39,140 nucleotides of DNA, taken from positions 1 through 39,140 of the forward strand of contig NZ_CAKMLL010000022.1 of assembly GCF_927797785.1 (NCBI RefSeq). Direction: 5' to 3'. Below, one piece after another: positions 1,881 through 32,031 of this stretch. The position numbers and the translations under genes were made by a program. This DNA comes from Candidatus Nitrotoga sp. BS. Lineage in GTDB: Bacteria > Pseudomonadota > Gammaproteobacteria > Burkholderiales > Gallionellaceae. How positions within the stretch are numbered: the first letter of the stretch is position 1; every line of letters begins with the position of its first letter. The notes below the pieces were generated by a model that saw nothing but the letters and a program-made list of their open reading frames with translations, made no database searches and was not told the origin of the DNA.

Positions 1881-1889
1881 ATTTTTTAG

Positions 1890-4232: not shown

Positions 4233-4410
4233 AACCAAGAGCATCACTGCACATTCTGATCCATGACTCCACTGCGCGGAACAAAGTAGCGTTTTGAATC
4301 GTAAAGATGCCAAAAATCGCAATAGTAAAGCGACCATTCAATTTATGCTTATCAACTAGCTATTTCCAGCTTCCATAAAAAGTCATGACAACCACCTTAA
4401 GAATAAAAAT

Positions 4411-5132: not shown

Positions 5133-5157
5133 CCAATAAACATTTCCTGTTTATTGG
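5133..5157 (-). terminator. Hairpin containing the tyrA stop codon
   Basis: CCAATAAACA (5133-5142) and TGTTTATTGG (5148-5157) form a perfect 10-bp stem with a 5-nt loop. The tyrA stop (5151-5153) lies inside the stem. No T-tract follows on the minus strand, so it is an imperfect terminator candidate or an mRNA 3'-end stabiliser for the long amino acid operon. Confidence 0.45.
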
Positions 5158-6023: not shown

Positions 6024-6059
6024 GACTGCCCTCAACTCTCCCGCTAGCGTGAGATCGAA

Positions 6060-8203: not shown

Positions 8204-8250
8204 TTAAAACCTTAGTTAATTTCATTTCCATCATTCCCGCAGAAGCAGGT

Positions 8251-8271
8251 GCTCTGTCATTGAGATAGAGC
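8251..8271 (-). other. Small hairpin in the pheA-hisC gap
   Basis: GCTCT (8251-8255) pairs with AGAGC (8267-8271) across an 11-nt loop that can pair further. No T-tract follows on the minus strand, so readthrough into hisC is expected. It may be an mRNA processing or stability element. No other feature is visible in this gap. Confidence 0.3.
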
Positions 8272-8322
8272 TTAATTTGTCTTTATGGGAATAGCGATAT
8301 TTTTAATATTGCACAAACGGTC

Positions 8323-9390
8323 TTATAAGGTAGCCGGGTACGAACCCAGGGTTTTTACGAACGCGGCGATTTGCTTTAATTCAGCCAGTGCGACTGCCAC
8401 TTTTGGATCATGCTGATGCCCTTCAATATCCATATAGAACACATATTCCCACATACCGGAACGCGCCGGCCGAGATTCCAGCTTGGTCATGCTGACGTCA
8501 TTTTTGACCAGCGGCGCCAACAAATCGTAGACCGCCCCAGGGCGATTAGGTGCAGACATGACCAGTGAGGTTTTATCCTTGCCGGATGGCGCTACATCTT
8601 GGTTGCCGATAACCAAAAAGCGCGTGGTATTGCGCGGGTGATCCTCAATATTTTGAGCCAATAATGGGATGTTGTAATTTTTGGCAGCCTTAGCGCTTGC
8701 GATCGCCGCACTATCTGCCTGCTGTTCCAAAGCCAGAAGAATCGCCTGGGTATTGCTGCCAACTGGCACGCGCTCGGCATTAGGCAAATTCGTATTCAGC
8801 CAGACTTGGCACTGCCCCAAGGACTGCGAATGTGAAAACACTCGCTTGATGGCTGAAATGTCAGCAACTTTCGACATCAAGCACTGATGTACCGGCAGCA
8901 TCACTTCGCCACACACCTTGAGCTGGCTTTGCAGCAACAAATCCAACGTGCGTCCAATCGCACCTTCAGTGGAATTTTCTACCGGAACCACACCATAATT
9001 TGCCTCGCCGCTTTCTACAGTTTGAAAGACTTCATCTATTGAAATACATGGCTTACACAGAACTGCATGACCAAAACGCTTCTCTACTGCTTCCTGACTG
9101 AAGGTTCCACTTGGCCCCAAGTATGCAACACATAGTTGCGACTCTAATGCACGGCAGTGAGACATGACCTCGGTAAATAATTGCGTAATACTCTGACTCG
9201 GCAACGGACCGGAATTATTGCTAACCATACGCTGCAATATCTGCGCCTCTCGCTCTGGCCGCAGCACTGTATTTTTACCTTTAAAATGACCGATTTGCCT
9301 TGCCAGCGATGCGCGCTGGTTAAATAACTTGAGTAAATCCTCGTCAATTAAGTCGATTTCTTCACGGTATTTATTGAGTTCATCACTCAT
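8323..9390 (-). CDS. pheA: Bifunctional chorismate mutase / prephenate dehydratase
   Basis: P-protein of phenylalanine synthesis: chorismate to prephenate to phenylpyruvate. Residues 1-85 are an AroQ chorismate mutase helical domain (YREEIDLIDEDLLKLFNQR). Residues 88-270 are the dehydratase, starting VAYLGPSGTFSQEA and containing NTTRFLVIG. Residues 273-355 form an ACT regulatory domain with the phenylalanine-binding ESRP motif near 302. At 355 aa, length and domain order match the proteobacterial P-protein. Feedback inhibition by phenylalanine is therefore expected. It follows serA closely, its ATG abutting a 17-bp tandem duplication of the serA stop region. Confidence 0.96.
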   Translation of the reverse strand: MSDELNKYREEIDLIDEDLLKLFNQRASLARQIGHFKGKNTVLRPEREAQILQRMVSNNSGPLPSQSITQLFTEVMSHCRALESQLCVAYLGPSGTFSQEAVEKRFGHAVLCKPCISIDEVFQTVESGEANYGVVPVENSTEGAIGRTLDLLLQSQLKVCGEVMLPVHQCLMSKVADISAIKRVFSHSQSLGQCQVWLNTNLPNAERVPVGSNTQAILLALEQQADSAAIASAKAAKNYNIPLLAQNIEDHPRNTTRFLVIGNQDVAPSGKDKTSLVMSAPNRPGAVYDLLAPLVKNDVSMTKLESRPARSGMWEYVFYMDIEGHQHDPKVAVALAELKQIAAFVKTLGSYPATL

Positions 9391-9423
9391 TGCTTATACA
9401 TCCATATTGCTTAAACATCCAAA
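9390..9423. repeat. Near-perfect tandem duplication (2 x 17 bp) at the serA/pheA junction
   Basis: TTGCTTATACATCCATA (9390-9406) is followed directly by TTGCTTAAACATCCAAA (9407-9423), with two mismatches. On the minus strand the unit contains the end of serA with its TAA stop, so stop codon and GGA are present twice just before the pheA ATG. The second copy may supply the pheA ribosome binding site. Confidence 0.7.
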
Positions 9424-10595
9424 TTCAAGTCGCGCACCATTAGCACACCTGAAATGGCCGCGATCTGCGCAATCATCTCAGGAGGTGTAGCGATATCGGT
9501 ATCAACCAGTGTGTAAGCCATCTCACCATGTGATTTATTTATCATATTGTGGATATTAATGCCGGCTCCGGCCAAAGCAGTAGAAATCTGCCCCAACATA
9601 TTGGGCACGTTGGCATTGGCGATGGCGATACGGAAGGACGATTCGCGCGGCATATTAACTGTAGGGAAGTTTACCGTATTGTTCAGGTTACCGTTCTCCA
9701 GATAGTCACGCACTTGCTCCGCCACCATTACCGCGCAATTGTCTTCCGCCTCTTGCGTGGAAGCGCCCAGATGAGGCAGGGCAATCACTGCCGGATTACC
9801 TTGCGTCTTCTGCATGGGAAAATCGCAAACATAATAGCTAATACGTTTGGCGGCTATACCAGCCAGCACTGCATCTTCATCCACGATGCCATCGCGCGCA
9901 AAGTTCAGCAGCACGCATCCTGGCTTCATCACTTGTACACGCTGTTCATTAATTTTGCCTCGTGTGGCATCCAGCAAGGGAAGATGCAGGGTAATAAAAT
10001 CACTTTGCTTAAGCAGATCTTCTATGCTGTTCGCCTTCTTCACCTGTGAAGCCAGGCCCCATGCTCCGTCCACGGTAATTTCAGGGTCGTAACCCACCAC
10101 TTGCATGCCCAAGCCAATGGCAGCGTCCGCCACCAGACGACCAATGGCGCCCAAACCAACAATACCCAAGGTACGGCCACGCAATTCAATACCTGCGTAA
10201 TTTTTTTTGCCATCTTCGACCAGCTTATGCAACGTGGCGTTATCGCCCTCCAAATTGGTGGTGAAATGCAGCGCGGCAATCAAATTGCGCGAAGCCAACA
10301 GCATACCTGCGATAACTAACTCTTTCACTGCATTGGCATTTGCACCCGCCGCGTTGAAAACTGGCACGCCTCGCGCATTCATTTTTTTAACGGGTACATT
10401 ATTAGTACCAGCGCCCGCGCGGGCGATGGCTTTCACACTAGCCGGAATATCCATCTCCAGCATATTTTGCGAGCGCACCAAGATCGCATCAGGTTCTGCA
10501 ATGTCGTTGCCAACAACATAATTTGTAGCGGGCAAGCGGGCAAGCCCAACCGTTGAAATTTTATTTAACGTCAGTATTTTAAAAGTTTTAGCCAT
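9411..10595 (-). CDS. serA: D-3-phosphoglycerate dehydrogenase
   Basis: NAD-dependent first step of serine synthesis, 3-phosphoglycerate to 3-phosphohydroxypyruvate. It begins MAKTFKILTLNKIS; GLGAIGRLV is the NAD-binding loop, GAGTNNVPV marks the substrate-binding domain, and LPHLGASTQEAEDN carries the catalytic His. The C-terminal 70 residues form an ACT domain (VPNMLGQISTALAGAGINI) that usually senses serine. ATG 10595 was chosen over TTG 10607; it overlaps the last codons of serC by 8 nt. At 394 aa it is the short form without the extra allosteric domain. It is directly downstream of serC, so two of the three serine pathway enzymes are co-transcribed. Confidence 0.95.
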   Translation of the reverse strand: MAKTFKILTLNKISTVGLARLPATNYVVGNDIAEPDAILVRSQNMLEMDIPASVKAIARAGAGTNNVPVKKMNARGVPVFNAAGANANAVKELVIAGMLLASRNLIAALHFTTNLEGDNATLHKLVEDGKKNYAGIELRGRTLGIVGLGAIGRLVADAAIGLGMQVVGYDPEITVDGAWGLASQVKKANSIEDLLKQSDFITLHLPLLDATRGKINEQRVQVMKPGCVLLNFARDGIVDEDAVLAGIAAKRISYYVCDFPMQKTQGNPAVIALPHLGASTQEAEDNCAVMVAEQVRDYLENGNLNNTVNFPTVNMPRESSFRIAIANANVPNMLGQISTALAGAGINIHNMINKSHGEMAYTLVDTDIATPPEMIAQIAAISGVLMVRDLNLDV

Positions 10596-11670
10596 GATTC
10601 TTTGCAAAATGTGTTATGAAATCAACCAATGTTTGCACACCTTCCAGCGGCATCGCATTGTAAATGGAAGCGCGCATGCCACCGACAGAGCGATGGCCCT
10701 TCAGTTGTAATAGGCCGTGAGAATCCGCCTGCTTGAGAAACTCGCCATCCAGACTGGCATCTTTCAGAGTGAATGGCACGTTCATACGTGAACGATCGGA
10801 CTTGACCACCGGGCAATTGTAAAAACCATTGCTGGCATCGATCGCCTGATACAACAGATTTGCTTTTTTGATATTGTTCTGCTCCATCTGCGCCAATCCG
10901 CCATTGCGCTTGAGCCACTGAAATACCAGTCCGGCCATGTAAATACCGTAAGTGGGTGGCGTGTTATACATTGAATCATTGTCAGCATGAATCTTATAAT
11001 CCAGCATAGAGGGCGTGCTCGGTGACACATTCCCAATCAAGTCTTCGCGCACGATAACAATACATAACCCAGCCGGACCAATGTTTTTCTGCGCCCCGGC
11101 ATAAATCAATCCATATTTGGATACATCAATCTGGCGCGATATAATATTCGATGACATATCCGCCACCAAAGGAATATCAGTTGTTTCAGGAACCCAATTG
11201 AATTCGACTCCGCCTATCGTCTCATTCGACGTGTAATGCAAATAGGCTGCATTCGGATCACACTGCCAAGTATCAAACGCCGGCACATAAGTAAAATTTT
11301 TGTCTGCGCCACTGGCCACAACATTTACATTGCTAAATTTTTTCGCTTCGGCTATTGCTTTCTTGGACCATTCACCAGTATTAACGTAATCAGCTGAAGT
11401 CTTGCCCCGTAACAGATTCAGTGGAATCATGGAGAATTGCAAATTCGCCCCGCCTTGCAGGAATAGCACCTTGAAATTAGCCGGGATCGCAAGTAGATCA
11501 CGTAAATCGCTTTCCGCCGCAGCTGCGATACCCATAAACTCCTTGCCACGGTGACTCATTTCCATAACAGACATGCCGCTGCCATGCCAGTCCAACAACT
11601 CCGCACTTGCCTGTTGCAACACCTCATGCGGTAATACTGCGGGACCTGCGCTGAAATTATAAATTGTCAT
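10588..11670 (-). CDS. serC: Phosphoserine / phosphohydroxythreonine aminotransferase
   Basis: PLP enzyme converting 3-phosphohydroxypyruvate to phosphoserine; it also serves the DXP-dependent pyridoxal phosphate pathway where that exists. It starts MTIYNFSAGPAVLP and has SHRGKEF and FLQGGANLQFSM. PLP lysine K195 lies in YAGAQKNIGPAG, and SPSTPSMLDYK, HRSVGGMRASIYNA and the C-terminal FITHFAKNHG complete the family pattern. At 360 aa it is full length. ATG start with AGG 6 nt upstream. It begins 14 nt after gyrA and overlaps serA, so it is probably expressed mainly from the gyrA promoter. Confidence 0.97.
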   Translation of the reverse strand: MTIYNFSAGPAVLPHEVLQQASAELLDWHGSGMSVMEMSHRGKEFMGIAAAAESDLRDLLAIPANFKVLFLQGGANLQFSMIPLNLLRGKTSADYVNTGEWSKKAIAEAKKFSNVNVVASGADKNFTYVPAFDTWQCDPNAAYLHYTSNETIGGVEFNWVPETTDIPLVADMSSNIISRQIDVSKYGLIYAGAQKNIGPAGLCIVIVREDLIGNVSPSTPSMLDYKIHADNDSMYNTPPTYGIYMAGLVFQWLKRNGGLAQMEQNNIKKANLLYQAIDASNGFYNCPVVKSDRSRMNVPFTLKDASLDGEFLKQADSHGLLQLKGHRSVGGMRASIYNAMPLEGVQTLVDFITHFAKNHG

Positions 11671-18134: not shown

Positions 18135-19088
18135 TCACTTTGTGGGCGATATGTTTTGTAGCTGACACACCGCAGCAAGTACTTGCCGCGCGAGATTGTC
18201 GGCTAAACAATCAAATTCGATTATTTCCGGCATGCCACGCAACCAGGTAAGCTGACGCTTGGCCAATTGACGCGTGGCGGCATTGCCTTTATCCAACAAC
18301 TCCGTTTCGTTTATTTCTTTAGCGAGAAATTGCCATGCCTGACGATAGCCTACACAGCGCATGGAGGGCAGATTGGGATGCAACGAATATTTTTCTTTAA
18401 GAGCAAGCAATTCATCCACCAAGCCGAGTTTAAGCATGGCAGCAAATCGTGTGGCGATACGTGCATGCAATTTGCTACGATCACTTGGAATGAGCGCAAT
18501 CTGCATGACGTGATACGGCAGCGGCTGTTTGTTCTGCTGTTTATACAGCACGGACATCGGTTGACCGGAGAGTTGATAAACTTCCAGCGCACGTTGGATA
18601 CGCTGCGCATCGTTTGGCTTTAGAAGCGCAGCTGTTTCCGGATCAACCTGAGCCAATTCGGCATGTAGTGCAGGCCAACCGATACGTATGGATTGTTCGT
18701 CCAAAGCGGCACGCACTTCAGAGTCGGCCTGCGGTAGTTCATTCAGACCGAAGAGCAAGGCGCGAAAATACAACATGGTGCCGCCAACCAGCAAAGGAAT
18801 GTGCCCGCGTTGAGTGATGTCACTCATCAAGCGCAGTGCATCCTGGCGAAAAGCTGCTGCGGAATAAACACTGGTTGGGTCAAGTATATTGATCAGATGG
18901 TGTGGCGCATGAACGAGGACAGCAGCCTCGGGTTTGGCAGTGCCGATATTCATATCCCGATACACCAACGCGGAATCAACGCTAATAATTTCAACTGGAA
19001 GCTGCTGTGCCAGTTCTACAGCCACTTGAGTCTTTCCGCTGGCGGTAGGGCCCATAAGGAAAAAAGCGGGAGGCAGTGGTGTGTTCAT
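18135..19088 (-). CDS. miaA: tRNA dimethylallyltransferase
   Basis: Adds the dimethylallyl group to adenosine 37 of tRNAs reading UNN codons. With ATG 19088 the protein is 317 aa and starts [20 protein letters not shown], the P-loop being residues 13-20. Further signatures are [62 protein letters not shown] and [13 protein letters not shown] longer in-frame start at 19160 lies inside mutL and would precede the P-loop with unrelated sequence. The start codon overlaps the mutL stop (ATGA), so translation is coupled. hfq, which often follows miaA, is not present. Confidence 0.96.
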
Positions 19089-20956
19089 TTTCCCCGCATG
19101 AACAGCGTATCCAATTCTGCAATACTCATTTGAAACCAGGTCGGACGACCATGATTGCACTGGCCGGAACGTTCTGTACGTTCCATTTCTCGCAGGATAT
19201 TATTCATCTCAGGCACGGTCAGGATTTGATTCGCGCGAACAGCGGAATGGCAAGCCAGCGTGGACAACACTTCGTTGCGTCGTTCAGTCAGCACTCGAGA
19301 GGCGCCGTATTCACGCATTTCATGCAACACATCACGTGCGGCAGCTTCGGCGTTAGCCTGTTTAAGCATAGCTGGCATGGCCCGCACTGCCAGTGTTGTC
19401 AGCGACAATGGAGCGATATCAAAACCGAGTTGTGTCATGGCAGCATGATTTTCCTCGGCTGTGGCAATGTCCAATGCGTCGGCCGCAAAGCTCACCGGGA
19501 TTAGCAACGGCTGCATGGGAATTTGCTGCCCATCAAGTGCCGTTTTAAGTCTTTCATATACGATACGCTCGTGAGCAGCGTGCATGTCCACCACCACCAG
19601 TCCATGCTCGTTTTGCGCCAGCAAGTAGATACCGGCCAGCTGTGCCAAGGCAAAGCCGAGCGGCGGAATTTCTGGTTCTGATAAAAAAGATTGAGAAGGA
19701 GTGCTTAAAATGGGCGCATCATTTTGGTTATCCTCCTCCCCTCCCCTGCTTTCCTTCCTTCCAAAAAGAGCATCGTAAAAAGCCAGCGGCTGTGATGCCG
19801 TATGCAACTGTAAAGGCTGCTGCATCGACATGGTTCGTTGCACGGATGGAATCTGAGCTAATTGATTCGGCAGGTCAGATGCATTTTCTTTTAGAGCCAC
19901 GGGTGTACTCAAAACTTGTTGCAGCGTATGGAACACGAATTGATGAATGGCCTGACTCTCGCGAAAACGAACTTCGATCTTGGCAGGATGTACATTCACG
20001 TCCACCAATTCTGGTGGCATATCAAGAAACAGCACGAAGGCGGGATGGCGCTGGTGATGAAGGATATCCTGATAGGCTTGTCGGATAGCATGAGCGATTA
20101 CTTTGTCGCGGATAAAACGTCCATTCACAAAAAAATATTGCGCTTCGCGTGATGCTTTCGAATAGGCAGGCAGGGAAGCCATGCCATATAAATGCAGCCC
20201 GGCTGCCTTGCGCGAGACAGGCACCGCACTTTGCGCAAACTCTTTGCTAAGCATAGCTTCGATACGTTTTGGCAATGCCTCTGCTTTTTCTTCCCAAGAT
20301 ACTTCAGAAACCGTAGAGGTCGAAGCAAGAGGCGTGCAGCCTGAGCTTGATAGCATGGGTAATTGCCACATCATACGGTTGTTGTGCTGCAGACTGAAGG
20401 CAACATCCGGGCGTGAAAGCGCGATGCGCTTGAAGGTTTCTTCGCAATAAGCGAGCTCAGTGGCTTCGGACTTAAGAAATTTACGCCGTGCCGGGGTATT
20501 GAAATACAGCTCACGTATTTCCACACTCGTGCCATGAGCGTGTGCGGCCGGAATAACTTCGCTCTGTGACCCATCCACGGATTGGATCTGCCAAGCATGC
20601 TGGCTTTCCGCCATGCGGCTGGTAAGAGTTACCTGCGCCACTGCCGCCATGCTGGCCAAAGCCTCGCCGCGAAAGCCCATGCTGGCGACGCGCTGCAAGT
20701 CAGCTAATGACGCAATCTTGCTGGTTGCATGGCGCATAAGGGCGAAAGGTAACTCATCCGGAGCGATGCCATTGCCATTGTCGCGCACACGCAGCAGCTT
20801 CACGCCACCGCCTTCCAGCTGCACGATAATTTCGGTGGCACCCGCATCCAGGCTGTTTTCCAGCATCTCCTTAAGCGCGGCAGCAGGACGTTCGATCACT
20901 TCGCCAGCAGCGATTTGGTTGATGAGCAGATCAGATAAGAGCTGTATGGTGGCCAT
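19085..20956 (-). CDS. mutL: DNA mismatch repair protein MutL (endonuclease type)
   Basis: 623 residues. The N-terminal GHKL ATPase has [26 protein letters not shown] (16-40), DNGNGI (59-64) and GFRGEAL (94-100); the transducer domain has [12 protein letters not shown] variable Gln/Ser-rich linker (about 350-430) joins the C-terminal dimerisation domain. That domain contains [12 protein letters not shown] (457-468), fitting the DQHA-X2-E-X4-E metal-binding endonuclease motif, together with ACHSA (568-572) and CNHGRP (600-605). MutL therefore probably nicks DNA itself in a MutH-independent pathway. ATG start without a strong ribosome binding site. It is the first gene of the mutL-miaA operon and divergent from the large flavoprotein gene. 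Confidence 0.97.
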
Positions 20957-21299
20957 ATAGAATGATTCAGGTTACGGGTACTGAATTATAACTTTTTCAT
21001 GCTATGGCAGTGCGGTGGCGAAGATAAAATCGTATAATCACAAGTTAATAAAAATTATCATTGCCCGGTATAGCCGGGTTTTTTAATATGTTTGGGCTGG
21101 CAAGCCTGTCGGATTAATAAATCCGTAGCACAGAATTAGCCGGGCGAAGGTAGATTTACAGCCGATTCCGTTTAAGTCCTTGAGCTGCTAGATCGCAGAA
21201 GTTGTGTTCGTATACAAGCAAGATGCCTCGCTTGCCGCTGGGTTGTGACACCTCGGTTTTAAATTCACAGCGCATAATAAATTCAGGAGTTTGCACTGC
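20957..21299. other. Divergent regulatory region between mutL and the flavoprotein gene
   Basis: No gene is visible in these 343 bp. The plus strand holds a TATAAT box (21033-21038) with no good -35 element, an intrinsic terminator hairpin (21064-21084), and two small stems: GGCT/AGCC (21095-21106) and CGGATT/AATCCG with an AATA loop (21110-21125). About 175 bp then remain before the flavoprotein ATG. The layout would suit a regulated leader or a very short RNA. Confidence 0.45.
21064..21084 (+). terminator. Intrinsic terminator in the leader of the flavoprotein gene
   Basis: CCCGG (21064-21068), loop TATAG, CCGGG (21074-21078), then TTTTTT (21079-21084). It points in the plus direction although the nearest upstream gene, mutL, reads away from it. 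It therefore ends either an unseen short transcript or an attenuated leader. Confidence 0.65.
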
Positions 21300-24200
21300 A
21301 TGGAAAGCATAAATTCTCAGCAACCTATCACAAGTATTGATAGTAGCGTAACGCCTCCCCCAGTTTTAAAACTGGGATTCGGAATGAAATTTGAAGATCT
21401 CTACAGCGTCGATGGGCTGCCCCGTATCGACTCTTATTTCCTGGCCGAACTTTCTGAAAGCGAACCGTTACTGGCGGAAAAACTGGCCGCAGCGCGTAAA
21501 ACACCGGATCACATGACGCATCTGGAAGAATCGCAGCTCATTATTAATCTGGCCCCACACCTGGAAGACTTTCTTGGTCAATTATTTAATATTCAGACTG
21601 CGGTACGCAAATCGGCAGAACAACACCATGAGCTAGCGCCCCTGTTCCACTGTAAACGTATTTTTGTGCAGCGAAAAGCAATAAACAAGTACAAAGCGGC
21701 TGATGCCGCAGCTTTCGATGGTGACGTCCTTGCAACAGCATTATTACAAGCTTTCGGCGATACCACTGGTGAAATGAGCGAATTACTTTTTGCCCGCCAG
21801 GTTAACAACTGGCTTGATGCCGAGGCAGAAAATATCGACAAACTTGATCTTGCCATGCGTTACGCGGCTTGGGCGGTGCATACCACAACTGGGAAAAAAC
21901 GCCATGGGCACGGCGTGTTATTCAAGGTTCCTGCCAAGCTCGATTTTCAGCGCCTGATACCTATCATCCCAATTGAAAATGTTCCATACACCGCGCATCG
22001 CCTTGCGGATAGCCATCTGCGTCAACGCGAGGGTTTCGCCCTTACTGACAAAGGTACGGACTTGGCTGGCGCCATGGGTGAAGCTAATTACTGCATTTGG
22101 TGCCATGAACAAAGCAAGGACTCCTGCTCGATTGGACTGCGGGAAAAAGCGGGTGTTGCTGATGCCCCCCCGCCATTTAAGAAAAGTACTTTCGGCATTC
22201 CACTGGCGGGTTGCCCCGTGGATGAAAAAATTTCCGAATTTCATAAAGTTAAAGCTTCCGGTCTGGCATTGGGTGCATTGGCTATCATTGCTGTAGATAA
22301 TCCGATGTGCGCTGCAACCGGTCATCGAATTTGTAACGATTGCATGAAATCATGCATTTATCAAAAGCAGGAGCCGGTAAATATTCCACAGTCCGAGACA
22401 CGCTCCTTAAAGGATGTTCTGGAGCTACCGTGGGGCTTTGAAATTTACAGCCTGCTCACCCGTTGGAACCCCCTCAATATTCGTCGGCCCTATCCGCGTG
22501 CTGCTACTGGCAAGCGTGTACTTGTCGTCGGCATGGGTCCTGCCGGTTTTACGCTGGCACATCATTTGATGAACGATGGTCATATTGTTGTTGGTGTCGA
22601 CGGGTTAAAAATCGAGCCGTTGCTGGGCGATTTATCTGGCGTGGATGCAGATGGCAATCGAGTGGCATTTAGCCCGGTCTACGATGCAAGTGCATTGAAG
22701 GAACCGCTGGATAACAGAGTTATGGCCGGTTTTGGTGGCGTGGCCGAGTATGGCATTACGATTCGATGGGATAAAAATTTCCTTAAAATCATTCGCCTGC
22801 TGCTGGAACGGCGCACACAGTTCGCGCTACTCGGTGGCGTACGTTTCGGCGGGACCATTACGGCCGAAAGTGCTTTTGAATCAGGCTTCGATCATATTGC
22901 ACTGGCAGCTGGTGCTGGCCGCCCAACATTGCTCGACATACCTAACGGTATGGCATGCGGTGTTCGAACTGCGTCTGACTTTTTGATGGCATTGCAATTG
23001 ACAGGGGCTGCCAAGCCAGACTCCATCGCCAACATGCAAGTTCGCTTACCCGTTGTAGTAATCGGCGGTGGCTTGACCGCTATTGATACAGCCACTGAAT
23101 CTCTTGCCTATTATCCGGTACAAGTTGAGAAATTCCTTTGCCGCTACGAAAGGCTGATAGCTGAAAAGGGTGAGGCCGTATTGCGCAGCATGTGGACGGC
23201 GGATGAAACAATTATAGGCGACGAGTTTTTGAGTCATGCTCGAGCTATACGCGCGGAGCGGGCCATGGCCTTGAGCGAAGGACGTAACCCCAACATCCTT
23301 CAGCTTATCAAATCATGGGGAGGCGTCACTTTGGCCTATCGCAAGCGCCTGGTCGACAGCCCTTCATATACCCTCAATCATGAGGAAGTGGAAAAGGCGC
23401 TGGAAGAAGGGATTTATTTTGCCGAAGGTTTGACCCCAGTGCGGGTAGAGGTGGATACAAATGGCAATGCGATTGCCATGGAGGTAATGCACCAGGTATT
23501 AAATGCCGAGGGAGCCTGGCAGAAGGCCGGGCAAATTAATCTACCCGCGCATACCATCTTTGTGGCTGCGGGCACCCAACCGAACACAGTTCTGGCACGC
23601 GAGTTTCCAGAAAAATTCAAGCTTGATGGCCGATACTTCCAGGCATGTGACGAACAAGGAGAACCCGTCAAACCAGAGCGTAGCAATACCAAACCGGCCC
23701 AGGCACACGTGCTTCAGTACAAGCACCATGATGGCCGCTTCATCAGCTTTTTCGGAGACCTGCATCCTTCATATTCCGGTAACGTAGTCAAGGCCATGGG
23801 TAGTGCAAAGCAGGGTTATCCGGTGTTAAGCAAAGTATTGTCACAAGTTGCCGCTGCAGATAAAGGGAACGATCAGGATTTTCTTGCACGCCTGAGCAAC
23901 GATCTGCGCGCCACCATACATCAAGTGATCCGCCTTACCCCTACCATCATAGAAGTAATCGTCAAGGCGCCTGCCGCGGCGCGAAATTTTCAACCGGGGC
24001 AATTTTATCGCCTGCAGAATTATGAGACTCATGCCACACAAGTCGATGGTACACGTATGGTCATGGAAGGTTTAGCTTTGACCGGCGCTTGGGTTGATGT
24101 CGAACAAGGCTTGCTCTCTACTATTGTGCTGGAAATGGGTGGTTCTTCTCAGTTATGTGCTGCGCTGAAACCCGGTGAACCAGTAGTGCTTATGGGGCCA

Positions 24201-24884
24201 ACTGGTACGCCCACTGAAATTGTTCCGGGAGAAACAGTGATGCTGGTTGGTGGGGGCTTGGGCAACGCCGTACTATTTTCCATCGGCAAGGCATTCCGTA
24301 GCGTCGGCTCTAAAGTTCTTTACTTTGCTGGCTACAAAAAAATGATAGACCGTTACAAGGTGGAAGACATCGAAATGGCCGCTGATGTGGTGATTTGGTG
24401 CTGCGATGAAGCGCCCGGATATATACCGGACCGTCCCCAAGACCGAACTTATGTAGGTAACATCGTGCAGGCCATCAAAGCCTATGCCAGCGGTGAACTA
24501 GGACAGCAAGACCTTGCGGTGAAGCAGGTCGATCGCCTCATCGCGATTGGTTCAGACAAGATGATGGCCGCTGTTGCAGGGGCCCGTCATAGCGAACTGA
24601 AACCCTATATGAAACCGGATCACCATGCCTATGGCTCCATCAATTCACCCATGCAATGCATGATGAAAGAGATTTGCGGCCAGTGCATTCAAGAACACTT
24701 CGACATTACGACTGGGGAAAAAACCTATGTATTCTCCTGTTTTAACCAAGATCAAAAACTGGACTGCGTAAACTTCCCCGGTTTGAACGCACGGCTCAAG
24801 CAAAATACCGTGCAGGAAAAGCTGACCGCGCAATGGATAGAACATTGCCTCGAACAAGATGACATGTTGACGGGTATATCTTAA
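21300..24884 (+). CDS. Fused NfnB/GltD-like and NfnA/PyrK-like flavoprotein oxidoreductase
   Basis: 1194-residue multidomain redox enzyme; ATG 21300 has AGGAG 10 nt upstream. Residues 1-255 are an unassigned alpha-helical region. Two cysteine groups follow: C265, C268, C276, C305 and C337, C345, C348, C352, suited to Fe-S clusters. A GltD/NfnB-like pyridine nucleotide oxidoreductase comes next, with FAD loop GMGPAG (411-416), second nucleotide loop IGGGLTAIDTA (588-598) and AAGTQPNT near 756. Residues from about 870 form a ferredoxin reductase/PyrK-like module: GQFYRLQN near 900, VGGGLGNAV near 983, and a C-terminal cysteine cluster (C1120, C1126, C1129, C1147) like the PyrK [2Fe-2S] site. 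In Nfn the two modules are separate subunits transferring electrons among NADH, ferredoxin and NADP. The pnt genes follow. Substrates and any bifurcation are inferred. Confidence 0.85.
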   Translation: MESINSQQPITSIDSSVTPPPVLKLGFGMKFEDLYSVDGLPRIDSYFLAELSESEPLLAEKLAAARKTPDHMTHLEESQLIINLAPHLEDFLGQLFNIQTAVRKSAEQHHELAPLFHCKRIFVQRKAINKYKAADAAAFDGDVLATALLQAFGDTTGEMSELLFARQVNNWLDAEAENIDKLDLAMRYAAWAVHTTTGKKRHGHGVLFKVPAKLDFQRLIPIIPIENVPYTAHRLADSHLRQREGFALTDKGTDLAGAMGEANYCIWCHEQSKDSCSIGLREKAGVADAPPPFKKSTFGIPLAGCPVDEKISEFHKVKASGLALGALAIIAVDNPMCAATGHRICNDCMKSCIYQKQEPVNIPQSETRSLKDVLELPWGFEIYSLLTRWNPLNIRRPYPRAATGKRVLVVGMGPAGFTLAHHLMNDGHIVVGVDGLKIEPLLGDLSGVDADGNRVAFSPVYDASALKEPLDNRVMAGFGGVAEYGITIRWDKNFLKIIRLLLERRTQFALLGGVRFGGTITAESAFESGFDHIALAAGAGRPTLLDIPNGMACGVRTASDFLMALQLTGAAKPDSIANMQVRLPVVVIGGGLTAIDTATESLAYYPVQVEKFLCRYERLIAEKGEAVLRSMWTADETIIGDEFLSHARAIRAERAMALSEGRNPNILQLIKSWGGVTLAYRKRLVDSPSYTLNHEEVEKALEEGIYFAEGLTPVRVEVDTNGNAIAMEVMHQVLNAEGAWQKAGQINLPAHTIFVAAGTQPNTVLAREFPEKFKLDGRYFQACDEQGEPVKPERSNTKPAQAHVLQYKHHDGRFISFFGDLHPSYSGNVVKAMGSAKQGYPVLSKVLSQVAAADKGNDQDFLARLSNDLRATIHQVIRLTPTIIEVIVKAPAAARNFQPGQFYRLQNYETHATQVDGTRMVMEGLALTGAWVDVEQGLLSTIVLEMGGSSQLCAALKPGEPVVLMGPTGTPTEIVPGETVMLVGGGLGNAVLFSIGKAFRSVGSKVLYFAGYKKMIDRYKVEDIEMAADVVIWCCDEAPGYIPDRPQDRTYVGNIVQAIKAYASGELGQQDLAVKQVDRLIAIGSDKMMAAVAGARHSELKPYMKPDHHAYGSINSPMQCMMKEICGQCIQEHFDITTGEKTYVFSCFNQDQKLDCVNFPGLNARLKQNTVQEKLTAQWIEHCLEQDDMLTGIS

Positions 24885-24979
24885 TGATAAAATCGCTCAG
24901 TAATTTGTTTTTTAGAGATGCCCTTGAATAATTACTTCTGCCCGGTAGACTCAGGCCATATTAAAAGAGGAGATGTTTC

Positions 24980-26104
24980 ATGCGTATAGGGATTCCTAAG
25001 GAAACGCGCGCAGGTGAAACACGTGTTGCGGCAACGCCCGAAACAGTGAAAAAAATGCTGGCCGCCGGTCATGCAGTCATGGTGCAGCAAGGTGCCGGAA
25101 CAGGCGCGAGCATTCCCGATGCAGACTATCTGGCTGCAGGAGCCACCTTGGTCAGCGACGCGGAGGTATATGCGCAAGCTGAGATCATACTTAAAGTGAA
25201 AGCCCCAACCGAAGACGAGCTGGCAAAGCTGGCCGCAAAAACCGTACTGATCGGCTTACTTTCACCTTTTCAGGCGGACTTGGTTGCAGCCTACGCCAAA
25301 CAGGGCATTACCGCTTTTGCCATGGAAAAGCTGCCGCGTACGTCACGCGCGCAAGCTATGGACGTTCTGTCCTCGCAAGCAAATATTGCCGGATATAAAG
25401 CAGTGCTGGTGGCGGCGAATTTATATAATCGGTTTATACCGATGTTGATGACGGCTGCCGGAACGGTGAAGGCAGCGCGCGTGGTGATATTAGGCGTAGG
25501 TGTTGCTGGTTTGCAGGCTATCGCCACTGCCAAGCGTATGGGTGCGGTGATTGAGGCCTCCGATGTACGTCCTGCAGCGAAAGAACAAGTAGCATCCCTG
25601 GGTGCCAAGTTCATTGACGTGCCTTTTGAAACTGATGAAGAGCGAGAGATTGCCCAAGGCGTTGGCGGCTATGCCCGCCCCATGCCAGCCAGCTGGATGG
25701 AACGTCAAAAGGTAGAGGTTGCTAAACGTGTGGCACAAGCCGACATTGTCATTACCACTGCATTGATTCCCGGTAGAGCCGCACCCGTGCTGGTAACTGA
25801 AGATATGGTCAAATCCATGAAACCGGGATCCGTGATCGTGGATATGGCTGCTGAAGCAGGCGGCAATTGCCCGTTGTCTGAAGTAGGCAAGACAGTGGTC
25901 AAGCATGGCGTCACACTGGTAGGTGAAGACAATCTGCCTGCTTTGGTTGCGACAGATGCCAGTGCTTTGTATGCACGCAACCTGCTTAATTTCCTCACTT
26001 TACTATGCGACCCTAAAAACGGCGGAAAAATGAACATCAATCGTGATGACGATATTATCGCCGGATCGTTACTGAGTATTGACGGAGAAGTGGTTACTAA
26101 ATAA
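24980..26104 (+). CDS. pntAA: NAD(P) transhydrogenase subunit alpha part 1 (NAD-binding)
   Basis: 374-residue soluble dI component of proton-translocating transhydrogenase. It begins MRIGIPKETRAGETRVAATP, has RTSRAQAMDVLSSQANIAGYKAV near 116, the Rossmann loop GVGVAGLQAIATAKRMGA near 174, DVRPAAKEQ, and a C-terminus ending in DGEVVTK with no membrane helices. The alpha subunit is thus split, as in Rhodospirillum rubrum, and the helices are encoded by the next gene. Ribosome binding site GAGGAG is 7 nt before ATG. It lies 95 nt after the flavoprotein gene, so co-transcription is plausible. Confidence 0.96.
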   Translation: MRIGIPKETRAGETRVAATPETVKKMLAAGHAVMVQQGAGTGASIPDADYLAAGATLVSDAEVYAQAEIILKVKAPTEDELAKLAAKTVLIGLLSPFQADLVAAYAKQGITAFAMEKLPRTSRAQAMDVLSSQANIAGYKAVLVAANLYNRFIPMLMTAAGTVKAARVVILGVGVAGLQAIATAKRMGAVIEASDVRPAAKEQVASLGAKFIDVPFETDEEREIAQGVGGYARPMPASWMERQKVEVAKRVAQADIVITTALIPGRAAPVLVTEDMVKSMKPGSVIVDMAAEAGGNCPLSEVGKTVVKHGVTLVGEDNLPALVATDASALYARNLLNFLTLLCDPKNGGKMNINRDDDIIAGSLLSIDGEVVTK

Positions 26105-26109
26105 ATAAT

Positions 26110-26126
26110 CTCCCTCTCGGAGGGAG
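26110..26126 (+). other. GC-rich hairpin between pntAA and pntAB
   Basis: CTCCCTC (26110-26116) and GAGGGAG (26120-26126) form a perfect 7-bp stem with a TCG loop. No T-tract follows, so it is more likely an mRNA stabiliser or pause that tunes subunit ratios than a terminator. Confidence 0.5.
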
Positions 26127-26173
26127 AACTGGAAGAGACTAAAATTCGCCAATCTCAACATAGGAGTTTAGAA

Positions 26174-26470
26174 ATGAGTACTGTAATTGATCCTGTAATT
26201 ATCAATCTGACCGTATTTGTACTGGCCGTGGTGGTCGGCTATCACGTGGTATGGAATGTCACACCCGCGCTACATACGCCGCTAATGGCAGTGACCAATG
26301 CCATTAGCGGCATTATCATCGTCGGTGCCATGTTGGCGGCGGGGCCTGAACAACTGGACGCCGGCACGATCATGGGCTTAATCGCAGTTATGCTGGCAGC
26401 AGTTAATGTATTCGGTGGTTTTCTGGTAACGCAACGCATGCTGAGCATGTTCAAAAAGAAAAGCAAATAA
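26174..26470 (+). CDS. pntAB: NAD(P) transhydrogenase subunit alpha part 2 (membrane)
   Basis: 98 residues with three predicted membrane helices (about 10-28, 36-56, 64-88) and a basic KKKSK end. The N-terminus has the PntAB pattern [38 protein letters not shown] (broken here only by position, residues 9-46). This is the alpha-side part of the proton channel (dII). GGAG lies 9 nt before ATG. It stands between pntAA and pntB in the standard order of the three-subunit enzyme. Confidence 0.94.
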
Positions 26471-26623
26471 GCCAAAACGCCACAACTCAGACGCGAAGTA
26501 GTGAAGTGGAGCGACATCAGCCATTAATTTGTGAATGGCTCCCTGCTTATTCGTAGGAGCGTCACACCACTTCTCCTGACTCGCGAAATAAAGCAGTTAC
26601 AAAAAAATATTCAAGGAAAATTT

Positions 26624-28003
26624 ATGTCGGCAAATTTTGTTGCATTAGCCTATTTAGTCGCCGCTGTCTTGTTCATCCTGGCACTGAAAGGCTTGAGCTC
26701 TCCAATTTCCGCACGGAACGGAAACATGTTCGGCATGATAGGCATGGCCATTGCGGTGCTTACCACGCTGACTGTCACCCAGAACCTGGTTTATATTGTG
26801 CTGGCTATCATTGTGGGCGGATCAATCGGTGCGGTGGTCGCCCGACGTATTCAAATGACTGCCATGCCTGAATTGGTGGCGGCCATGCACTCACTGGTCG
26901 GTCTGGCGGCGGTGCTGGTCGCCATGTCCGCGTTTTATAATCCAGTCGCCTACGGCATCGCGCCGTTGCATGCCAGCAACCTGATTGAGTTATTCATCGG
27001 CACGTTTATTGGTGCGATCACATTCACTGGTTCCATCATCGCATTCGGCAAACTGTCCGGCAAGCTTGGCAGCAAGCCGCTAACATTTTCAGGACAACAC
27101 TGGTTTAACCTGTTCCTGGGTGTTGTGATGATCGCTTTCGGCATCATGTTCACGGTTACGGAAAGTTGGACACCATTCCTGATCATGATTGTTTTGGCGC
27201 TGGCGCTGGGCGTGTTACTGATTATGCCGATTGGCGGGGCGGACATGCCAGTAGTCGTATCCATGCTTAACTCCTATTCCGGGTGGGCGGCAGCGGGCAT
27301 TGGCTTTACCCTGAATAACAATATGCTGATTATTGCCGGTTCATTAGTAGGCAGCTCTGGCGCGATTCTCTCTTATATTATGTGCAAGGCAATGAACCGC
27401 TCTTTCTTCAATGTAATTCTCGGTGGCTTTGGTGGTGAAGCTGAAGTGGGAGAGGCTGGCAAGGTCGAACAACGGCCAGTGCGTAGCGGTAGTGCGGATG
27501 ACGCTGCATTCCTGATGGGCAATGCGGGTAGCGTCATCATCGTGCCGGGCTATGGCCTGGCGGTCGCGCGGGCACAACATGCAATCAATGAAATGTCTAA
27601 TCTTTTAATCGAAAATGGCGTCAATGTACGTTATGCCATTCACCCTGTGGCTGGACGCATGCCGGGGCATATGAACGTGTTACTGGCCGAGGCTGAAGTA
27701 CCTTACGATCAAGTACTTGAAATGGACGAGATCAATAACGAATTTGCCGATACTGATGTAGTACTGGTTATCGGTGCCAACGACGTGGTGAATCCTGCAG
27801 CCAAAACTGACCCGCACTCTCCTATTTATGGCATGCCGATCATTGATGCACACAAGGCGCGCACCATTCTGGTGGTAAAGCGCAGTATGGCTGTTGGTTA
27901 TGCAGGACTGGACAATGATTTGTTCTATTTAGACAAAACCATGATGGTGTTTGGCGATGCAAAAAAGGTAGTCGAGGAAATTATCAAGTCGTTGCAGCAT
28001 TAA
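26624..28003 (+). CDS. pntB: NAD(P) transhydrogenase subunit beta
   Basis: 459 residues from ATG 26624, with AAGGA 6 nt upstream; the frame is open farther upstream to 26531 but lacks signals there. The N-terminal half has multiple membrane helices (dII), including GSIGAVVARRIQMTAMPELVAAMHS. The C-terminal dIII binds NADP, with IIVPGYGLAVARAQHA, HPVAGRMPGHMNVLLAEA, EMDEINNEFADTDVVLVIGANDVVNPAA and KRSMAVGYAG. With PntAA and PntAB it uses the proton gradient to drive NADH plus NADP to NADPH. In an autotroph this would supply NADPH for carbon fixation; that is inference. Confidence 0.97.
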   Translation: MSANFVALAYLVAAVLFILALKGLSSPISARNGNMFGMIGMAIAVLTTLTVTQNLVYIVLAIIVGGSIGAVVARRIQMTAMPELVAAMHSLVGLAAVLVAMSAFYNPVAYGIAPLHASNLIELFIGTFIGAITFTGSIIAFGKLSGKLGSKPLTFSGQHWFNLFLGVVMIAFGIMFTVTESWTPFLIMIVLALALGVLLIMPIGGADMPVVVSMLNSYSGWAAAGIGFTLNNNMLIIAGSLVGSSGAILSYIMCKAMNRSFFNVILGGFGGEAEVGEAGKVEQRPVRSGSADDAAFLMGNAGSVIIVPGYGLAVARAQHAINEMSNLLIENGVNVRYAIHPVAGRMPGHMNVLLAEAEVPYDQVLEMDEINNEFADTDVVLVIGANDVVNPAAKTDPHSPIYGMPIIDAHKARTILVVKRSMAVGYAGLDNDLFYLDKTMMVFGDAKKVVEEIIKSLQH

Positions 28004-28452: not shown

Positions 28453-31400
28453 GTGGTAACTCCATTCGCTGCATCACGCATTAATGTGATTCAGAAGCTA
28501 CTATCTTTGTCTCCTACCGTCCGATTTTTACCATGGTTAGTAGTGATAGTTTCTTTGGTTGTAACCCACCAGTTATGGAAAAATGCACACAACGAAGCTG
28601 TACGGGAATTGCAATATAATTTCAATTTTCGTGTGCTTGATGTCAGAAACCGCATTGAACAGCGTATGCAGTCTTATGAACAAGCGCTACGGGGCGTACA
28701 AGGTTTATTCGCCGCCTCCATTAACGTAGAACGCGACGAATTCCATGCCTATATCCTCGATCAACATATTGTGGAGAACCTCCCTGGTATACAAGGCGTT
28801 GGATTTTCGCTGATCGTACCTGCAGTGCAGCAAAACAAACACACTACAATTATCCGCAAGGAAGACTTTCCCCCACACCCCATTAGTCATAATGGGAAAC
28901 AAGACATCGCCACCTCCCTCATCTTCATCGAGCCCGTCACAGAGAGTAATCGACGCACTTTTGGTTACGACATGTATTCCGATCCGATACGACGTGTTGC
29001 AATGGAGCAAGCACGCGACAACAATAAAGCCGTTATCACAAGTAAGACAAAACTTATACAAGAAAAAAGTGAGAGCACGCAGGCTGGTTTTCTGATGTAT
29101 TTACCTATTTACAAAAATGGTGCGCCATATGCCACCTTAGCTCAGCGCCGCGCAAACCTAATCGGCTGGGTCTGTGCTCTGTTTCGGATGGATGATTTAA
29201 TGCGTGGCATTCTCGGTACACGTGTACCTGACATCAACATAAAAATTTACGATGGCGAGGAAATGTCGAGTAAGACGCTAATGCATGATGCCGATAGCAC
29301 AAACAAAATCGGCGTCAAGATGGATCCGCTCTTCCATGCTTCCAAGCACTTTGAAATTGCTGGCCACACCTGGACAATGGCTAATAGCTCTCTCTCTAGC
29401 TTTGAGGCACAGCTGGACGAAGAACAGTCGCAGTCCATCATCGTGTTTGGCTTAGCTGTAAGTATATTGCTGGGGCTACTCACAGGGTTGCTGGTGCAGG
29501 GTCGGGAACGCGCTCTTCGAGCTGCGCGGAAGATGAATGAACGATTAATCGAGAGTGAGGAGCGCCTACGCCTTAGTCTGATGTATGGCGAAATCGGCAC
29601 TTGGGATTGGGATATTTGTACTAGCGAACTGTATTGGTGCGACCATATTTCTTACCTGATGGCCTGCCCTGCAGGAAAACAGAATAGTACTTATGAAGAT
29701 TTTATGAGCAGCATACATCCTGATGATCGTCAGAACGTTGTCAATTCAATGAATGCCTGCGTTGAAGCAAGCACTAGATACAACATAGAGCATCGAGTGA
29801 TTTGGCCGGACGGCACAATACGCTGGTTACATCAGCGTGGCGGTGTAATACGCGATAAAGATGGGACTCCTCTGAAGATGCTGGGTGTGGTTCAGGATAT
29901 TACCAGCAAAAAACTGGAGGAGATAGAACTGGTCGAGATCGATACGAGATTGCGCACCATTATTGATGCCGCCCCGGACGCCGTAGTGTTAATGAATTCA
30001 GAGGGCATTCTCACCGGCTGGAATGGACAGGCAGAAAAGATTTTTGGCTGGACCCGAGAAGAAGCCATCGGACAAATGCTGCACGATATGATCATCCCGC
30101 AGCAATATCGTAATGCGCATATTCAGGGCCTGAAACATTTTTTGGCTTCCAGCGAGGGGCCTGTACTAAACAAGCGCATAGAGATAGCAGGCTTGCATCG
30201 CGATGGCCACCAATTTTCTATCGAATTGGCAATATCTCCAGTCAAACATAAAGATAAATATGAGTTCTGCGCTTTCATCCACGACATCACAGTTCGCAAG
30301 AATACTCAAAGCTTACTGCTGCATGCCAAAGAAGACGCTGAGCGGAGCTCCGCAGAGTTAATCAGCTATATCCAGGCCATTGACCAGCACGCCCTCGTTT
30401 CAGTCGCCGACCCTGTCGGGCGCATCATACAGGCCAATGAAAAGTTCTGTGAAGTCAGTGGCTACAGCCCGGAGGAGCTGCTCGGTCATGATCACCGCAT
30501 CATCAATTCCGGGATGCATCCAAGCGCTTTCTTCATCGATATGTGGACAACCATCACCCGTGGTGACATCTGGCGCGGTGAAATTTGTAATCGCGCAAAA
30601 AACGGCACATTGTATTGGGTAGATAGCGCCATCGTGCCACTCAAAGGTGTGAACGGGCAAATTGTACGTTACATTTCGGTCAGGGTTGATATCACCAAAC
30701 GCAAGGAAGCTGAGCAGCATATCCAGTCCCTGGCTTACTACGATGTGTTGACTGGACTACCCAACCGTACCCTGCTGCGTGACCGTCTCGGTCAGTTGAT
30801 CGCTGAATCCCATCGCGATAAGCAGCAATTTGCATTGCTATTTATTGATCTTGATCGCTTTAAGTATATTAACGATTCGATGGGGCATGCGGTGGGCGAC
30901 AAACTATTGCAGGAAGTCGCGCTGCGCTTGCAGGAATGTGTGCGTGAAGTGGATACTGTGTCGCGTATCAGTGGCGACGAATTTATTGTGTTACTGCGTG
31001 AAACTGATGCAAACGGTGCGGCGCATGTGGCTGGCAAGATACTCAAGACACTGACTACTCCTTGTAATGTCGGCACTCTGCAAATCGTCACCCATGCCAG
31101 CATCGGCATCAGTATTTACCCTGATAATGTGGATAGTGACGACGAAATCAATACATTGATCAAGCACGCTGACGTGGCGATGTATCGTGTAAAGGCTGAG
31201 GGCCGCAGCAATTTTTTGTTTTTTGAGTCTGAAATGAATTTCCGTGCTAATCAACTATTCTCCATGGAAAATGATATGCGCCTGGCATTAGAGCGCAACG
31301 AGTTTACATTGCATTATCAGCCTCAGGCGAACTTGATTAGTGGAATGGTGTGCGGTGCGGAGGTTTTGCTGCGTTGGGAGCATCCAGAAAAAGGCTTTGT

Positions 31401-32031
31401 TTCACCAGCCGAATTTATTCCGGTGGCCGAAGAGACTGGGCAGATTATACCTATAGGGGAATGGGTGCTGCGCACAGCTTGCAAGCAACTGGCCGAATGG
31501 CGGCGACAGGGAATGGCCCAATTTCCGCTGTCTATAAATATATCGGTCATACAGCTACGTCAGCCTCAACTTGCGCAAATAATCATCGCTGTATTAGAAG
31601 AAACGGGGCTGGACCCAAATGACTTGGAGTTGGAAATTACTGAAGGCGTCATGCTGAACGAAGCTCAAGCAGCAATGGATTTTCTGATCAATATGAATGA
31701 GCTGGGAGTGAAGTTGGCCGTGGATGATTTCGGCACTGGGTATTCTAGCCTTAGTTACTTGAAGAAAATGCCGCTTGATCGACTGAAGGTTGATCAATCA
31801 TTCGTGCGTGACGTCGCTACTGATGACAACGATGCGGCTATCGTGCGGTCCATCATTAGCCTGGGCCACCAGTTCAAATTACAGGTCATCGCGGAAGGCG
31901 TGGAAACGCTGGAACAACTTGATTTCTTGCGCATCAGAGGCTGCGACGAGGTTCAAGGTTATTATTATAGCCGTCCACTGCCAACTGAAAAATTTGCAAT
32001 GTTCGTCAATAGCAATCCAGTACTAAATTAG
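28453..32031 (+). CDS. CHASE-PAS-PAS-PAS-GGDEF-EAL cyclic-di-GMP protein
   Basis: 1192-residue membrane sensor. A transmembrane helix at about 24-42, a periplasmic CHASE domain (about 70-310) and a second helix (329-349) precede three PAS domains (about 370-490, 500-615, 640-750). The GGDEF domain has SGDEF (840-844) with the inhibitory I-site R831-x-x-D834 exactly five residues earlier. The EAL domain has EVL (970-972) instead of EAL but keeps NIS, ELEITEG, DDFGTGYSSL, K1112 in RLKVDQ, AEGVET and QGYYYSRPL. Both synthesis and hydrolysis of cyclic di-GMP are thus possible, probably tuned by the PAS ligands. The GTG start lacks a clear ribosome binding site, but stop codons allow little else. 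Confidence 0.93.
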   Translation: MVTPFAASRINVIQKLLSLSPTVRFLPWLVVIVSLVVTHQLWKNAHNEAVRELQYNFNFRVLDVRNRIEQRMQSYEQALRGVQGLFAASINVERDEFHAYILDQHIVENLPGIQGVGFSLIVPAVQQNKHTTIIRKEDFPPHPISHNGKQDIATSLIFIEPVTESNRRTFGYDMYSDPIRRVAMEQARDNNKAVITSKTKLIQEKSESTQAGFLMYLPIYKNGAPYATLAQRRANLIGWVCALFRMDDLMRGILGTRVPDINIKIYDGEEMSSKTLMHDADSTNKIGVKMDPLFHASKHFEIAGHTWTMANSSLSSFEAQLDEEQSQSIIVFGLAVSILLGLLTGLLVQGRERALRAARKMNERLIESEERLRLSLMYGEIGTWDWDICTSELYWCDHISYLMACPAGKQNSTYEDFMSSIHPDDRQNVVNSMNACVEASTRYNIEHRVIWPDGTIRWLHQRGGVIRDKDGTPLKMLGVVQDITSKKLEEIELVEIDTRLRTIIDAAPDAVVLMNSEGILTGWNGQAEKIFGWTREEAIGQMLHDMIIPQQYRNAHIQGLKHFLASSEGPVLNKRIEIAGLHRDGHQFSIELAISPVKHKDKYEFCAFIHDITVRKNTQSLLLHAKEDAERSSAELISYIQAIDQHALVSVADPVGRIIQANEKFCEVSGYSPEELLGHDHRIINSGMHPSAFFIDMWTTITRGDIWRGEICNRAKNGTLYWVDSAIVPLKGVNGQIVRYISVRVDITKRKEAEQHIQSLAYYDVLTGLPNRTLLRDRLGQLIAESHRDKQQFALLFIDLDRFKYINDSMGHAVGDKLLQEVALRLQECVREVDTVSRISGDEFIVLLRETDANGAAHVAGKILKTLTTPCNVGTLQIVTHASIGISIYPDNVDSDDEINTLIKHADVAMYRVKAEGRSNFLFFESEMNFRANQLFSMENDMRLALERNEFTLHYQPQANLISGMVCGAEVLLRWEHPEKGFVSPAEFIPVAEETGQIIPIGEWVLRTACKQLAEWRRQGMAQFPLSINISVIQLRQPQLAQIIIAVLEETGLDPNDLELEITEGVMLNEAQAAMDFLINMNELGVKLAVDDFGTGYSSLSYLKKMPLDRLKVDQSFVRDVATDDNDAAIVRSIISLGHQFKLQVIAEGVETLEQLDFLRIRGCDEVQGYYYSRPLPTEKFAMFVNSNPVLN

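Follow-up and report, generated by a model that had tools for sequence, protein, structure and literature searches.

It is a standing question how nitrifying bacteria make low-potential electrons when their donors have a high potential, and one locus of Candidatus Nitrotoga sp. BS, in which the gene for a large flavoprotein precedes genes for a proton-translocating transhydrogenase (Pnt), raises it again in the form of a single testable gene. The window analysed here, that is, the whole stretch of 39,140 nucleotides, corresponds to contig C22 (NZ_CAKMLL010000022.1) of the 3.1 Mb genome. The 1194-residue protein encoded at 21300-24884 on the forward strand is referred to by the working name NFL, with residues numbered from the ATG at 21300. 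Nfn-type enzymes, known mainly from anaerobes, exchange electrons among NADPH, NADH and ferredoxin. We tentatively read NFL as a single-chain Nfn-like NADPH/NADH/ferredoxin oxidoreductase, which together with Pnt would connect the proton motive force via NADPH to ferredoxin, and we rate this reading somewhat short of an even chance. Its direct basis is formed by the predicted fold, the conserved ligand residues, and the gene order together with its conservation.

The NFL frame is open from a TTG at 21291 or the ATG at 21300 and stops at 24884. The ATG is the likely start, giving 1194 residues, because an AGGAG (21285-21289, forward strand), recognised by eye as the probable ribosome-binding site, lies 10 bases upstream. 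A scan for relatives yielded 580 confirmed stretches; 80 loci were listed, and the locus counts given below refer to these. Since the 80 relatives are 63-90% identical to NFL over most of its length, the frame does not owe its existence to chance. A gap of 95 bases (24885-24979), in which the terminator scan found no forward-strand site, separates NFL from pntAA (24980-26104; PF01262, PF05222, NF006942), which is followed in the same direction by pntAB (26174-26470; PF12769) and pntB (26624-28003; PF02233, 656.7 bits). The longest pntB open reading frame begins at a GTG at 26531, and its probable start lies at MSANFVAL. The order of PntAA, PntAB and PntB domains found by Pfam and NCBIfam is that of the three-gene proton-translocating Pnt form, in line with what a sequence-only reading of the window had proposed. 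The divergent neighbour on the other side (19085-20956, reverse strand) is presumably mutL. Promoter and terminator scans returned sites no more numerous than in shuffled sequences, and we claim no operon from them.

Is NFL itself related to Nfn? Sequence and fold searches identified both an NfnB-like and an NfnA-like module in the chain. Pfam placed Fer4_20 at residues 303-365 and Pyr_redox_2 at residues 406-787, and NCBIfam models of the PyrK/DHODB type matched residues ~872-1132 in the C-terminal third. The GltD/NfnB-like module, comprising Rossmann domains for flavin adenine dinucleotide (FAD) and NADP(H), spans residues ~406-787 (22515-23660), preceded by the ligand region of two [4Fe-4S] clusters (22092-22397), which is marked by conservation and Fer4_20. 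The PyrK/NfnA-like module, with FAD and NAD domains and a [2Fe-2S] site, occupies residues ~872-1194 (23913-24881); like all parts of NFL, these lie on the forward strand. Nfn and Xfn chains ranked first when NFL was compared with the sequences in the PDB. An AlphaFold2 model built from 77 sequences (mean predicted local distance difference test, pLDDT, 83.3; predicted template modelling score 0.85) gave Pyrococcus furiosus NfnI as the top Foldseek match, with template modelling (TM) scores on the target of 0.79 for the large and 0.82 for the small subunit, as compared with 0.67-0.71 for GltD chains, the fold of which is seen in the middle module. Further matches were NfnABC, dihydropyrimidine dehydrogenase and Stn. 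The fold predicted by this model is hence nearer to Nfn than to GltD, and the earlier claim that one chain joins the two modules is borne out by families, PDB sequence search and model alike. Ahead of them stands a mostly helical N-terminal domain (residues 19-262; 21354-22085) with a pLDDT of 85.9, low in the last ~20 residues. Foldseek returned no PDB match to this domain at E<=0.001, the best of 33 having an E value of 2.6; at a guess, it might dock ferredoxin or a partner.

Cofactor residues were compared in an alignment (A1) of 77 rows, comprising the window's NFL and 76 of the 80 listed loci, in a distant set of 43 usable loci at 36-64% identity (44 were tried, and L128 has no frame of more than 700 residues), and in 20 GltD-like frames serving as controls. 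The [4Fe-4S] positions C265, C268, C276, C305, C345, C348, C352 and E366 are unchanged in 77/77 rows of A1, as are C1120, C1126, C1129 and C1147 of the [2Fe-2S] site. All twelve Fe-S positions are kept in the 42 scorable rows of the distant set, one further row being gapped. NFL therefore has the seven Cys and one Glu that serve two [4Fe-4S] clusters in Nfn; E366 is the presumed Glu ligand, as judged from the alignment with Nfn. Moreover, R489, at the position of the bifurcating flavin, is Arg in 77/77 rows of A1 and 43/43 distant rows, whereas the controls carry Lys in 20/20. R681, at the position of the NADPH 2'-phosphate, is likewise invariant (77/77 and 43/43); Nfn uses a pair of Arg for this phosphate, and position 682 is K in 62 and R in 15 of the 77 rows, and K in 25, R in 16 and Q in 2 of the 43. 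The alignments thus show FAD-motif and Fe-S residues in place, without loss of a ligand. Since dihydropyrimidine dehydrogenase also has Arg at the position equivalent to R489, this residue is no proof of bifurcation. The flavin Arg has been tied to a low flavin potential and called conserved in all Nfn homologues in passages of one paper (PMC6405883), and the corresponding Arg is noted in part of another, on Stn (PMC7483475).

The likeness to Nfn suggested by the sequence-only reading holds for the modules and fails for three Nfn signatures. The a-FAD motif ERxPxT is replaced by EGLALT, in which E, G, A and T are present in 77/77 rows, E923 and T928 among them; the distant set varies here, with 35 E and 7 P at position 923 and 34 T and 8 S at position 928. 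The clusters are spaced as Cx2Cx7C, a CP 29 positions on, and RICx2Cx3C, as opposed to RCx2Cx4Cx3CPV and GRVCPQExQCx3C in the published Nfn pattern (PMC6405883, in part). The [2Fe-2S] motif, in a region of low model confidence (block means 63 and 54), reads Cx5Cx2Cx17C with Cys at every ligand position in place of the Nfn motif DGTGMCGxCRx10CV, the Asp ligand of which is credited with +80 mV in the same passages (PMC6405883). These differences raise the possibility that NFL is a non-bifurcating NAD(P)H:ferredoxin reductase or a plain exchanger between NADH and NADPH, in which the potential of the [2Fe-2S] cluster would be too low for a gated high-potential branch. The invariant C1120/C1126/C1129/C1147 site and the replacement of ERxPxT in all 77 rows speak for such an enzyme, as does the fact that none of the five PF00175 proteins in the window's genome attains the cut-off of the Fpr model. 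Conversely, two flavin modules would scarcely be called for in a plain reductase, and R489 and the NfnB-type Cys/Glu ligands are retained in all scorable rows. On balance we regard this alternative as doubtful, yet a serious contender.

How does NFL differ from enzymes already described? It shares with NfnAB (P. furiosus NfnI, 5JCA/5JFC; Thermotoga maritima, 4YLF) both modules, that is, two FAD/NAD(P) modules, as well as the ligands of two [4Fe-4S] clusters including Glu, the N5 Arg and a [2Fe-2S] site. In contrast to NfnAB, NFL combines both parts in a single chain, NfnB first and NfnA second, and has an extra N-terminal domain, an all-Cys [2Fe-2S] site, other cluster spacings and EGLALT for ERxPxT; its hosts here are Proteobacteria, nitrifiers among them. 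The fusion as such, which the sequence-only reading had set against the separate Nfn subunits, is indeed a single chain and yet not new, since a 2019 paper already reports Nfn homologues that are fused in three of four patterns, in the passages concerned without biochemistry (PMC6405883). Pattern C, for example in Mobiluncus curtisii, is likewise a single chain, the C-terminal part of which comprises a-FAD, NAD and [2Fe-2S] (PMC6405883, in part), and its order as described, GltD-like first and PyrK-like C-terminal, recurs in NFL. Relative to the fusions of clostridia (2,274 bp gene), the pattern C protein is described as ~200 residues longer (same partial source), whereas NFL has 1194 residues. 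Pattern C presumably corresponds to NCBIfam PRK12779, a candidate that was rejected for NFL: its score on NFL is 92.5 bits against a cut-off of 1519, and 37 of 94 genomes of the class gave matches at E<=1e-60, none above the cut-off. The 20 PRK12779 matches that were opened are GltD-like frames.

The database name of the longer NFL type, 'glutamate synthase/polyprenylphenol hydroxylase', points to yet another function, namely a glutamate synthase beta subunit or a polyprenylphenol hydroxylase. It is the name of the top NCBIfam model for NFL, NF005128 (PRK06567), known by name only, which matches in three stretches from ~residue 23 with 765.4 bits and thus below its curated cut-off of 1072, so that membership does not follow. 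GltD works with GltB, a protein of more than 1197 residues. Within 15-34 kb, the part searched rather than the genome as a whole, no frame longer than 1197 residues and no nearby GltB was found, and NFL lacks the Lys of the FKL motif. Moreover, the Arg at the flavin position, the fold nearer to Nfn, and the PyrK module, which GltD does not have, stand against the name, and we consider this function very improbable. No paper using the accession name PRK06567 and no functional study of the longer NFL type was found in the open-licence literature. In one report the name was accepted literally: a glutamine-to-glutamate conversion was assigned from it to Neorickettsia helminthoeca NHE_RS02780 (PMC5481527, in part). 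The NFL residues argue against a literal use, which would thus be corrected; NHE_RS02780 is linked to NFL by its annotation.

We then asked how widely NFL occurs. The closest named relatives among the matches listed are from Candidatus Nitrotoga (83-90% identical), and the named loci among these matches include Nitrosomonas, Nitrosospira and Nitrotoga, all of them aerobes. At E<=1e-50 NFL is carried by 69 of 220 sampled genomes of the order and by 15 of 299 of the phylum, the window's genome being included in both counts. In the class sample, 52 of 274 genomes had a match at E<=1e-100 and 112 at E<=0.001, many of the latter being short and GltD- or PyrK-like. That NFL, complete with flavin Arg and cluster ligands, occurs in 69/220 sampled genomes of one order contrasts with the rarity reported for bifurcating enzymes in aerobes: in a 2018 survey of complete genomes, bifurcating enzymes other than Fix were nearly absent from aerobes, and Nfn occurred in one characterised aerobe (PMC6085437, in part). 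The terms transhydrogenase, NADPH and bifurcat are absent from the main text of the 2018 Nitrotoga paper (PMC6050957) and of the Gallionellaceae pangenome paper (PMC10734462). As a side observation, records of metagenome-assembled genomes titled Bordetella parapertussis or Chitinophaga pinensis (L009, L020, L023, L033) hold NFL genes that group with those of environmental Betaproteobacteria, and the titles look like mislabels.

The linkage with pnt proved narrower than NFL itself. In 6/6 readable Nitrotoga-type loci (L002-L007; L003, which ends within pntAA, is counted, and L008, which ends within NFL, is left out) pntAA lies downstream of NFL, and so it does in 16 of 21 readable Nitrosomonadaceae loci, which number 24 by the NFL tree before L036, L044 and L049, with less than 2.5 kb downstream, are left out. 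The distance from NFL to pntAA in linked loci ranges from 53 to 826 bases, with a small gene between them in L053, L055 and L069. No pnt match was found in the remaining 49 of the 80 listed loci, some of which lie on short contigs. The conservation of the linkage in relatives is thus real but restricted to the Nitrotoga type and the ammonia oxidisers. In Nitrosospira briensis Nsp8 and Nitrosovibrio sp. Nv4 (L031 and L052), a second pntAA-like gene follows NFL-pnt.

The adjacency could also be an accident of gene order in related genomes. It occurs in two lineages only, and as a label on the NFL tree it needs three changes, possibly one gain and two losses. Against an accident stand the outer neighbours, which are unlike (mutL as opposed to cysN), and the pnt genes, which are not sisters between the two lineages: in a pnt tree of 32 rows, the Nitrotoga-type genes group with those of L205 and L209, which belong to the same family (support 95), and a clade joining them to the pnt genes of the ammonia oxidisers is rejected (approximately unbiased test, p 2e-6). 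A more distant pnt type is carried by L206, L207 and L208 of the window's family. In addition, mutL lies beside pntAA without NFL in three of the eight pnt stretches retrieved from other genomes, the matches being ~100 bases apart in L211, ~145 in L207, and ~1 kb in L209, where two small frames intervene; L207 and L209 belong to the window's own family, and the other five stretches show no mutL. Because such pairs lack NFL, the gene looks inserted between mutL and pntAA in the Nitrotoga type. Accidental order is therefore, in our estimate, distinctly improbable. The NFL tree leaves its own node unsettled, with a support of 42 for Nitrotoga plus Nitrosomonadaceae, and Nitrotoga plus Gallionella is not rejected (p 0.445). 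Transfer of NFL and pnt as a unit from ammonia oxidisers to Nitrotoga or the reverse was rejected on the pnt genes, the NFL tree being indecisive. The simplest account is that the pair was probably assembled twice, separately, in the two lineages; one ancient linkage followed by losses is possible.

What would the pair do? Pnt would use the proton motive force to hold NADPH highly reduced. NADPH would bind to the GltD-like module of NFL and reduce its FAD, from where electrons would reach a ferredoxin by way of the two [4Fe-4S] clusters. The PyrK-like module would swap electrons with NAD(H) via its FAD and the [2Fe-2S] cluster, NAD(H) being the favoured second partner. In Nfn, ferredoxin docks where the cluster chain ends (PMC6405883, in part). 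In 4 of 40 other fetched stretches NFL has a ferredoxin-type gene as its neighbour: an FdxA gene overlaps its start in L159, and in L153, L156 and L168 an RsxB-type gene lies 80-250 bases downstream. The direction from NADPH to ferredoxin is favoured for these reasons, namely the dock at the end of the cluster chain, the recurrence of ferredoxin genes and the supply of NADPH by Pnt. The reaction may be coupled by bifurcation, which would make this direction favourable; otherwise it would proceed only near equilibrium. Such a chain would serve aerobic chemolithotrophs in need of low-potential electrons, and the pairing hints at the charging of ferredoxin with proton-gradient energy. The two redox-balancing routes proposed by the sequence-only reading do lie side by side, yet Pnt and NFL are, we infer, more probably consecutive steps than parallel routes. 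In a bolder version, which we regard as rather unlikely, NFL would represent an overlooked large branch of the Nfn superfamily in aerobic chemolithotrophs and form with Pnt a two-step ferredoxin reductase driven by the proton motive force, with bifurcation at the GltD-like FAD tuned by the all-Cys [2Fe-2S] cluster and gated or docked by the helical domain.

In Nitrosomonadaceae the neighbourhood suggests a different client. The order runs from a divergent CysB-type regulator through a hemoprotein of the nitrite/sulfite reductase type, DUF934 (in some loci), cysH, cysD and cysN to NFL and pnt, and cysN was detected upstream of NFL in 20 of the 24 loci, at a distance of 99-2247 bases from the NFL match. 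The hemoprotein scores below every NCBIfam cut-off, its best model being ferredoxin-nitrite reductase, and may be of the ferredoxin type judging from that model. In L131, from a genome of another class (G544), cysI, a CysG-like gene, cysH, a cysD-like gene, cysNC and NFL follow each other (1887-11146), with cysNC stopping 2 bases before the NFL frame and no match to PF00667 (CysJ-type) in the genome; the window's genome has no PF00667 match either. NFL might thus be a dedicated supply of reductant for assimilatory sulfite reductase, directly or via one ferredoxin, in place of CysJ. However, no cys cluster appears next to NFL in the neighbour tables outside Nitrosomonadaceae and L131. The position of cysN, the L131 arrangement, the lack of a PF00667 match in the window's genome and the Fpr result given above also count in favour of the oxidoreductase reading.

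Several further observations weigh against the NADPH-to-ferredoxin chain, the first three of them also against the sulfite reductase supply. PF00667 is found in 8/69 NFL carriers and 13/151 non-carriers (Fisher p 0.47), so there is no anticorrelation, and the presence of NFL is independent of the absence of CysJ. CysJI-type genes are present beside cysHDN-NFL-pnt in two Nitrosomonadaceae genomes (G378 and G335), where NFL is retained. The cys genes of the window's genome lie on another contig, without NFL. A direct substitute for CysJ is weakened by this co-occurrence and by the two genomes, and we consider the sulfite reductase supply improbable. As regards the oxidoreductase reading, the majority of the 40 stretches lack a common neighbour, and NFL and PntB are neighbours in only 5 of the 69 order-sample carriers (at least 5, as 4 further carriers have no listed PntB place; 10 have no PntB match). 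These five are the window and four of the six carriers of one family (f187), the fetched members of which group with Nitrosomonas. By presence, PntB is found in 59/69 carriers as compared with 105/151 non-carriers (Fisher p 0.012, kinship ignored). Above all, our confidence is limited by the all-Cys [2Fe-2S] site: the high-potential branch known with the Asp-ligated site may be missing, and the ligand set counts against filing NFL as Nfn.

Some minor observations concern the surroundings. The CysJI-type genes mentioned above are divergent from cysHDN-NFL-pnt (L203:8799-12379 and L204:6196-9761; families were scanned for L203), and relatives of these loci carry the other sulfite reductase type with DUF934 in their place. 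In a Nitrosomonas subgroup (L047, L053, L055, L069, L149, L151, L152), genes that by eye are response-regulator-like or HPt-like stand either in the cysN-NFL interval or in the NFL-pntAA interval. A frame elsewhere in the window's genome (L179) presumably encodes the beta subunit of nitrite oxidoreductase. Directly 3' of pntB, the window encodes a CHASE-PAS-GGDEF-EAL protein of 1192 residues (28453-32031). In L205, L207 and L208, from the same family, pnt is likewise followed by the gene for a protein whose C-terminal half is similar.

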